Below, one piece after another: positions 51,337 through 53,581 of a stretch of 64,000 bases of DNA. Position numbers and translations under genes: made by a program. Every line of letters begins with the position of its first letter. Position 1 is the first letter of the stretch. The notes beneath the pieces were generated by a model that saw nothing but the letters and a program-made list of their open reading frames with translations, was not told where the DNA came from and did not search any database. The DNA lies in assembly GCA_026929865.2 (NCBI GenBank), contig CM049413.1, forward strand, positions 11,044,001-11,108,000. Direction: 5' to 3'. This DNA comes from Hyperoplus lanceolatus (taxonomy: Eukaryota > Chordata > Actinopteri > Uranoscopiformes > Ammodytidae).

Positions 51337-53581
51337 ATGCCAGTGAGTATCCAGAGACGGCCTTGAATTGACATTTATACCATTTAATCGGCTATTGGAG
51401 AAGCGTTAAGTAGCTCAATGCATGCCCATGAAACTAGCGAAACGGCTGGTGTCGGTTTTAGACGCTTTCGTTGAGTTTTTGTTCCGCTTTTACGCTAATG
51501 ATTTAGCACATTTGAGCGCATTGCGAGCGCATTGTGACTCAAGATGGCGGCGCACACACAGCAAACATGGAGCCAGTTCAACGGAGGCAGTGAACGGGCT
51601 GATGATACAGAAAACCCCAGTATTTATAGGGACAGTTTACTCTGAAATATGTTGTTACGTTGATAACTATTTTGTATGACCTCTGAATCATAGATGTTTT
51701 TAACAGAATCATCAGCGACTAATGAAAATGCGTAGCTTGCGTTACCTACATTTTGAAATAAAGGCCTGAAGACGAGTCTGACTGTAGCAGGTGTTAAGCA
51801 GAACAAAACGATGCCTACAACAATTGATTAACTGTGCATTAAAGGCAATCGATGCATTCAAATAACTACTATCCAACGTTTTACAGTTTCACTTGGTATA
51901 CCTTGTTTTACTTGCCTCAGTTTGAACAAATCAAGGCATTTGTCTGATTAAGCACACATACCTCTTTATTAATGTATCCTTCTCTAAAATCTTCAATTGC
52001 AGCTCGCGAAAGACTTGTTGCATCCGTCCCCTGAGGAGGAAAAGAGGAGGCACAAGAAGAAGCGTCTTGTACAGAGTCCCAACTCTTACTTTATGGATGT
52101 CAAATGTCCAGGTAAAACTTTTTTTTCTTTGTAAATGTATTCCATGTCAAACTCCAATACGTCACTTGGCACATTTGTTGTTAAACTTGTAAGGCCTTAA
52201 GTGGCCCAAGTAGGGTTTAATGAATACTTATTGTGTGAAATTGCAATTCAAAAATAATTTAATTTCTGAAATTAACTTTCTCTGGCATGATGTTTTGAAT
52301 GACATATTAAAACGATAAAACCAATTTTAAAGACACTTCAAGTAGGTTATCAAACTCATAGCTTTATTTCACATGAATGTTTGTCTTCATTTGTGTTGTC
52401 ACATGCAACTTGTTTTGAATTGTCGACCGCACTGCCAAGTGACTGGACTTCCTCTGTGATGGTCTTCCAATCTCATTCCAGTGCCAGATTGACCTCAGTT
52501 TGCAGAAGGGTTGAGCTAGACCACTGGCTCCCCCCTTTCGAAGACCGAGAACAAATATTTGCTGTATAGGGCTCCTATAGTCCCGGCTTTGTACCGGTAG
52601 TTAGTTTGTTGTTGAATTTCCTTCTGAGCCCGGATGAAAACTTCTTAAATCAAAGGTGTAGGAACCCCAATTTATCCACCACAGCTTTAGGGTGGTAATG
52701 TTTCCATTTTGATGTCAGGAGTTCTAACCTGTGTCTTGTCTGTATTGTTTGCTTTCCAGGATGCTACAAGATCACGACAGTGTTCAGCCACGCCCAGACA
52801 GTCGTGCTGTGTGTCGGCTGTTCAACAGTCCTGTGTCAGCCCACTGGAGGCAAAGCACGTCTCACAGAGGGTCAGTATCAGCCTGCGATATAAACGTTAT
52901 CTGATTAACTGTCTTTTATGGAACCCGAATTGTATGTTCACCAATTTGGACAATATTCCTTTTTGATACAAGCTTTTGGTTGAGTTCTTCAGCAGCAACA
53001 CAAGGTCAATGCTCTCTGACTGTTCAGTCAAGAACTGTTTTGTTGCCTTAAATTGGCTTTACAAATCAGCACCGACTTTCTTTTAACAGTGCTGACCAAA
53101 TTATTTGCACTACACTATGGAATAAATAACTGATGTTATAGGACACTGTTGACCTTGTATTGTACCGGCTCATTTTCACCAAGTCATTTATATAATATTG
53201 CTTAAGTTCACCTGATTGTTTTGCCTTTGGCTGCTGCTTCAGACCATCATGATTCGTTCACGTGCCACTTGTTTTGAATTTGTCGGCCGCACTGCCAAGT
53301 TACTGGACTTCCTCTGTGATGGTCTTCCAATCTCATTCCAGTGCCAGATTGACCTCAGTTTGCAGAAGGGTTGAGCTAGACCACTGGCTCCCCCCTTTCG
53401 AAGATTGAGAACAAATATCTACTCTAAAGTGCTCCGATAGTCCTGGGAATCTAGTTAGCTTTGAGTAGCTTACAGTAAGCTTACAGTAGCTGCCTACACT
53501 AAGGCTTCTCTTTTGTCTGCATCTGTCTGACTGTCATTGTCTCCTCTGACAGGGTGCTCATTTAGGAGGAAGCAGCACTAG
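51337..53581 (+). CDS. rps27: 40S ribosomal protein S27 (eS27)
   Basis: Small-subunit zinc-binding ribosomal protein. Four exons: 51337-51342 (only ATG CCA), 52003-52111, 52760-52870 and 53553-53581, giving 84 residues, exactly the vertebrate length. The zinc ligands C37-x2-C40 and C56-x2-C59 are present (KCPGCYKIT and LCVGCSTVL). The sequence is nearly identical to human, including SFRRKQH at the end. The six-base first coding exon is a known feature of this gene. Introns 2 and 3 each contain a copy of a ~160-base repeated segment that may be an RNA. Poly(A) signal at 53752-53757. Confidence 0.97.
52400..52558 (+). ncRNA. unidentified structured RNA candidate in rps27 intron 2 (copy 1)
   Basis: Nearly identical to the segment in intron 3 (53259-53418), while the flanks are unrelated; 103 bases (52442-52544) are perfectly identical. 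Possible folding: GGTCTTC (52461-52467) with GAAGACC (52540-52546), then CCAGTG (52478-52483) with CACTGG (52522-52527), then CTCA with TGAG. An ACA triplet followed by AAT lies at 52551-52556, as at an H/ACA snoRNA 3' end. No convincing H box or 5' hairpin was found. Ribosomal-protein introns commonly host snoRNAs. A SINE-type duplicate is the main alternative. Confidence 0.45.
53259..53418 (+). ncRNA. unidentified structured RNA candidate in rps27 intron 3 (copy 2)
   Basis: Second copy of the intron 2 segment. Where copy 1 has GAAGACC, this copy has GAAGATT (53400-53406), which still pairs with GGTCTTC (53321-53327) through two G-U pairs. Other differences fall near the 5' edge. ACA followed by AAT is kept. 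It lies about 135 bases before exon 4. Confidence 0.45.

Follow-up and report, generated by a model that had tools for sequence, protein, structure and literature searches.

The rps27 locus

The window (the whole 64-kb stretch of DNA that was analysed) contains the coding part of an rps27 gene on the + strand (51337..53581), with exons at 51337-51342, 52003-52111, 52760-52870 and 53553-53581. Joined together, these exons encode an 84-residue protein, and GT..AG boundaries are found at 3 of 3 introns. Among PDB chains, the product matches ribosomal protein eS27 best (4.6e-56, identical at 83 of 84 residues), with S27-like chains ranking below it (7.6e-54 and weaker). A CTTTTC stretch upstream from the ATG looks TOP-like by eye, and an AATAAA lies on the 3′ side at 53752. 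rps27 is a housekeeping gene. Its introns 2 (52112-52759) and 3 (52871-53552) each harbor one copy of a duplicated block; the exon join, the intron boundaries and the eS27 match confirm the location assigned to the two segments in an initial inspection of the letters (hereafter, the sequence-only reading).

Two further genes flank this region. The N-terminus of an SK channel is encoded on the - strand at 60461-61420 (Pfam 4.5e-11; PDB matches to SK2 and to one SK/IK chain). On the + strand, positions 18559-23229 form a 1556-residue open frame that is rich in AT-hook-like KRGRP motifs and has no Pfam or PDB match. We take this AT-hook-rich gene to be ash1l-like and the frame to be the large ash1l exon, the human neighbourhood presumably being RPS27-KCNN3-ASH1L. 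The sequence-only reading took the DNA to be that of a fish, which is probable and agrees with the compactness of the genes. A sub-threshold match to mir-555 (37207-37291, +; 32.1 bits against 92, E 0.0014) overlaps an apparent exon of the ash1l-like gene (37183-37269; weak PHD match, E 0.057). Because it falls on this exon, and because human MIR555 is, we assume, located in ASH1L, the match looks like protein-coding conservation rather than a microRNA. Elsewhere in the window, a reverse-transcriptase fragment (32338-32871, +; PF00078, E 1.4e-8) marks a retroelement remnant, and a SCARNA7-like match (60037-60181, -; 22.8 against a curated 65, E 0.21) is probably due to chance.

SNORA35 matches in introns 2 and 3

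Scanning the window with Rfam yielded two full-length matches to SNORA35 (RF00566), an H/ACA snoRNA. Copy 1, in intron 2, spans 52427..52556 (+; 75.8 bits, E 1.4e-12) and copy 2, in intron 3, spans 53287..53416 (+; 69.6 bits, E 4.2e-11); both cover the model from 1 to 129 of 129 and score far above its gathering score of 39. Apart from these copies, no match in the 64 kb reached its own gathering score. The sequence-only reading had suspected a duplicated snoRNA-type RNA in the introns of a ribosomal-protein gene, which the RF00566 matches bear out, and had proposed an Rfam run on each copy, now answered by the two full-length matches. Its opinion that the RNA cannot be assigned to a known snoRNA, and might be new or divergent, is overturned by the scores. 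On sequence grounds, we identify the two segments as duplicated copies of the known snoRNA SNORA35. In the available extracts of the literature on SNORA35, its host genes, its targets and fish snoRNAs, we found no report of SNORA35 in rps27; the main text of PMC3511168 mentions neither SNORA35 nor RPS27, and the extract of the main text of PMC4053766 does not mention SNORA35.

Predicted fold and box anatomy

Both copies fold into the hairpin-hinge-hairpin-tail arrangement of H/ACA RNAs, in the MFE as well as in the centroid structure. Folding each copy, as had been suggested, and comparing it with dinucleotide shuffles gave z values near -3: the MFE of copy 1 is -44.0 (z -3.15, with 0 of 200 shuffles as good) and that of copy 2 is -42.8 (z -2.95, 1 of 200). 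The 5′ hairpin, thought at first to be missing, is present in the Rfam model match and in the fold, where its basal stem is formed by GCACUG and CAGUGC. The hinge reads CAGAUUGACC. At the H-box position (52486..52491 in copy 1 and 53346..53351 in copy 2, both +) lies AGAUUG, which occupies the same place as AAAGUA in the Rfam consensus and differs from the strict ANANNA in that two of the three fixed As are kept while the last letter fails. The absence of a standard H box was thus noted correctly. Degenerate H-box forms are tolerated in H/ACA snoRNAs. The ACA end that both copies were said to have is the ACA box (52551..52553 and 53411..53413, both +), found at 125-127 of 130 in each copy, 3 nt before a modelled 3′ end (AACAAAU) that is set by the Rfam model.

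The 3′ hairpin accounts for two of the differences between the copies. A CC at 52545-52546 is replaced by TT at 53405-53406, as originally noted and as the alignment confirms. The change had been read as preserving a pairing with GGTCTTC. That pairing can be written down, but it is not part of the predicted fold, and imposing it makes copy 1 less stable by 4.0 kcal/mol and copy 2 by 9.3 kcal/mol; pairing preservation was therefore ascribed to a non-native helix. In the basal stem of the actual 3′ hairpin, copy 1 has a G-C pair and an A/C mismatch at these positions and copy 2 a G-U and an A-U pair, so that one G-C becomes G-U and an A-U is gained.

The free folds of both copies contain, in addition, a three-pair helix between UUG of the hinge and CAA of the tail, which overlaps both boxes. 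In the free fold of copy 1 the arms of the 5′ pocket pair together, and opening the pocket costs 3.6 kcal/mol (5′ hairpin alone).

A predicted guide match to 18S rRNA

Pattern searches for eukaryotic 18S sequence returned 0 and 3 stretches of viral contigs, none of the 3 with an Rfam match; a 28S pattern had 0 hits among viral contigs, and its shortened form picked out a single contig, filed in a bacterial bin, that contains just fragments of eukaryotic LSU. As these searches provided no eukaryotic 18S, the 18S letters were taken from print. They are those of salmon and human, read from published primers and probes, and not the source species' own: an Atlantic salmon primer (extract of PMC1314898), a human primer and an agreeing 18S probe (extracts of PMC4861434 and PMC7016903), with further letters from a goat probe (extract of PMC10138370) and a fire ant primer (extract of PMC3511524).

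The 5′ pocket of copy 1 matches this sequence in full. Its left arm, AAGUG (52437..52441, +), pairs with 18S CACUU, and its right arm, CUCAUUCCA (52472..52480, +), pairs with 18S UGGAAUGAG. This makes 5+9 Watson-Crick pairs without a mismatch to UGGAAUGAG-U-N-CACUU of salmon and human 18S; the U and the N stay unpaired between the arms, and N, which is A in the salmon and C in the human sequence, is the only difference between the two at the paired site. The last two letters of the right arm also belong to the basal stem, seven of the nine lying outside it. From the start of the right arm to the H-box position is 14 nt, in both copies as in the Rfam consensus. An H/ACA guide is expected to hold its target U 14-16 nt upstream of this box, and the 14 nt seen for copy 1 at its 5′ pocket falls within that range. 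A second, nearby U of human 18S, which can form 6+7 pairs with either copy, was rejected on spacing: the right arm would begin at 39, which is 21 nt away from the H-box position. In copy 2 the right arm (53332..53340, +) is unchanged, and the left arm is AAGUU (53297..53301, +), the G to U change at 53301 breaking the pair nearest the target U.

We take the paired U to be number 566 of human 18S. This number is consistent with the letters at +6 (U) and +10 (A), which are those that Ψ572 and Am576 demand (extract of PMC6182160). A 2025 preprint predicts 18S nucleotide 566 as a snoRA35 pseudouridylation target (extract of PMC12776523).

Shuffled sequences were used to gauge how readily such a match arises. 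When each arm was allowed to shift by only a few letters from its observed place, in ranges set after the match had been seen, 0 of 200,000 letter shuffles reached 14 pairs and 2 reached 12; among 20,000 dinucleotide shuffles, 1 reached 14 and another 2 reached 11. The corresponding score of copy 2 is 10, equalled or exceeded by 11 of 200,000 letter shuffles. When the arms were left free to move, 9 of 5000 dinucleotide shuffles gave at least 12 pairs and 120 gave at least 10, and in a set of 20,000, 1 reached 14 and 5 reached 13. Since the 18S site had been named before the test, no correction for rRNA length was due.

In the Rfam consensus the left arm is the same AAGUG, and the letters of the mouse SNORA35 primer agree in that arm (extract of PMC5865145). 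The right arm is where the two differ: 9 nt are complementary to 18S in the rps27 copies, compared with 4 in the consensus, followed by three mismatches, the comparison being with a consensus and not with a mammalian sequence. The 18S pairing is therefore no family-wide constant.

These observations bear on the main competitor of a guide role, namely that both copies are genuine SNORA35 but orphan, the 18S match being coincidental or unused and the RNAs acting otherwise, for instance as sources of small fragments. Mutual pairing of the pocket arms in the free fold would suit such RNAs, as would a consensus in which just 4 of the first 7 pairs of the right arm are kept, and the one dinucleotide shuffle in 20,000 that attains 14 pairs shows that the probability of a chance match is small but not nil. 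Against this stand the perfect pairing of both arms at the 14-nt spacing, a combination never reached by the letter shuffles, the identity of the left arm in the consensus and the independent prediction of the same 18S site (extract of PMC12776523). We regard orphan status as unlikely, if the most serious of the competing explanations, and favor a guide function for copy 1.

Origin of the two copies

The duplicated block extends beyond the RNA. Around copy 1 it spans 52399..52590 (+), with its counterpart at about 53258-53450, the outer limits being approximate. The RNA core is identical at 127 of 130 positions, against 49 of 63 aligned columns in the adjoining flanks (25/29 upstream, 24/34 downstream); the Fisher p of 1.5e-5 for this difference is only indicative, because the flank limits were chosen after the alignment had been seen. 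In the next 100 or so bases outward, identity falls to 59/120 and 55/115 columns. The flanks had been called unrelated, which describes the farther segments and not the adjoining ones. The longest exact stretch common to both copies measures 103 nt, the length originally counted, and starts at 52442 and 53302. The three core differences, from copy 1 to copy 2, are G to T at 52441, C to T at 52545 and C to T at 52546.

A BLAST search of the window with each copy detected the two copies and otherwise only chance matches of 11-14 nt. Both copies were also compared by BLAST with 88 loci, consisting of viral-contig stretches that match a 15-letter snoRNA pattern (14 letters specified; 87 matches) and of one additional locus, L088; similarity was at chance level only (the lowest E values were 0.068 with copy 1 and 0.24 with copy 2, over at most 36 nt). 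A viral origin, like a SINE one, was discarded on these window and viral-contig results. L088 carries, at 1-97 and 4349-4975, pieces of eukaryotic LSU rRNA within a Mucilaginibacter metagenome bin, probably a contamination of the bin.

A mobile, SINE-like retroposed snoRNA that landed twice would also place two copies near each other, and retroposition is named as one route of snoRNA spread (extract of PMC2653536). Many copies across the genome had been put forward as the sign of such an element; the part of this check that concerns the window disclosed no third copy in 64 kb. Moreover, homology continues beyond the RNA into the intron sequence on either side, neither copy is followed by an A-rich tail, and chicken snoRNA paralogs are nearly all intragenic duplicates (extract of PMC2653536). 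We consider retroposition very improbable here. Still harder to credit is an unconstrained intron duplicate whose similarity reflects recent duplication only: just two sequences are compared, but the core is better conserved than its flanks and both copies match a curated covariance model over its full length.

Discussion

The Rfam match, the predicted fold, the host gene and the complementarity and spacing of the guide are best accommodated by a duplicated, rps27-hosted SNORA35 whose copy 1 guides pseudouridylation of 18S rRNA, an account to which we assign a probability of about 75%. SNORA35 paralogs would have arisen by duplication between neighbouring rps27 introns. Both copies would be expressed by being spliced out with their introns, trimmed and assembled with dyskerin and partner proteins into RNPs. 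Copy 1 would then pair with 18S through its 5′ pocket and direct modification of the U between the arms (566). With a housekeeping gene as host, most cells would carry the mark. Copy 2, with its altered left arm, may have a weaker or drifting role.

A known snoRNA family, a ribosomal-protein host and a duplication are ordinary in kind; what is of interest is the difference in host and the fuller guide match. In mammals, HTR2C hosts SNORA35 in one of its introns (intron 2 in mouse), and the RNA is called brain-specific (extracts of PMC6027130 and PMC5865145). The rps27 copies resemble this RNA, SNORA35/HBI-36 (RF00566) of HTR2C intron 2, in matching the model from end to end, and they share with RF00566 the AAGUG left arm (copy 1), the distance from right arm to H box and an ACA followed by 3 nt. 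They differ from it in the hinge, as described above, and in residing, as two copies, in rps27 rather than in HTR2C; with this host they are not positional orthologues of the mammalian HTR2C copy.

Chicken offers the closest parallel for the arrangement. GGgCD37 and GGgCD47 (both RPS8), GGgCD48 (RPS3) and GGgACA4 (PABPC4) are intragenic snoRNA paralogs like the rps27 pair, several of them in ribosomal-protein genes, in different introns of one gene (extract of PMC2653536). Unlike the case described here, the chicken H/ACA table, in the same extract, contains no SNORA35/HBI-36, and between 367 and 610 of chicken 18S (chicken numbering) the extract gives no site with a listed guide. Table 2 of that work also records GGgACA52, an H/ACA RNA that is encoded opposite to HTR2C within its intron 1 and has U6-86 as its listed target (extract of PMC2653536).

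In the table of modified 18S sites for human TK6 cells, Cm517 is followed directly by Ψ572, so that 566 is absent, and the main text does not name a site 566 either; the HeLa sites, about 70% of which were determined, are the same as in TK6, and the authors state that human rRNA modifications vary little among cell types (extract of PMC6182160). In these TK6 and HeLa data, brain is outside the sample, and they do not favor a brain-restricted mark.

A broader proposal, which we advance tentatively and at somewhat under even odds, is that SNORA35 serves in fish as a housekeeping guide for 18S Ψ566, that the mammalian copy, in the neuronal gene HTR2C, has a degraded right arm, and that the host switch caused a constitutive mark to become brain-restricted or to be lost. 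The combination of an rps27 duplicate and a perfect guide match to 18S provides a testable account of the origin of SNORA35 and of its original use. If the proposal is true, the brain-specific SNORA35 of mammals would be what remains of an ordinary guide for rRNA.
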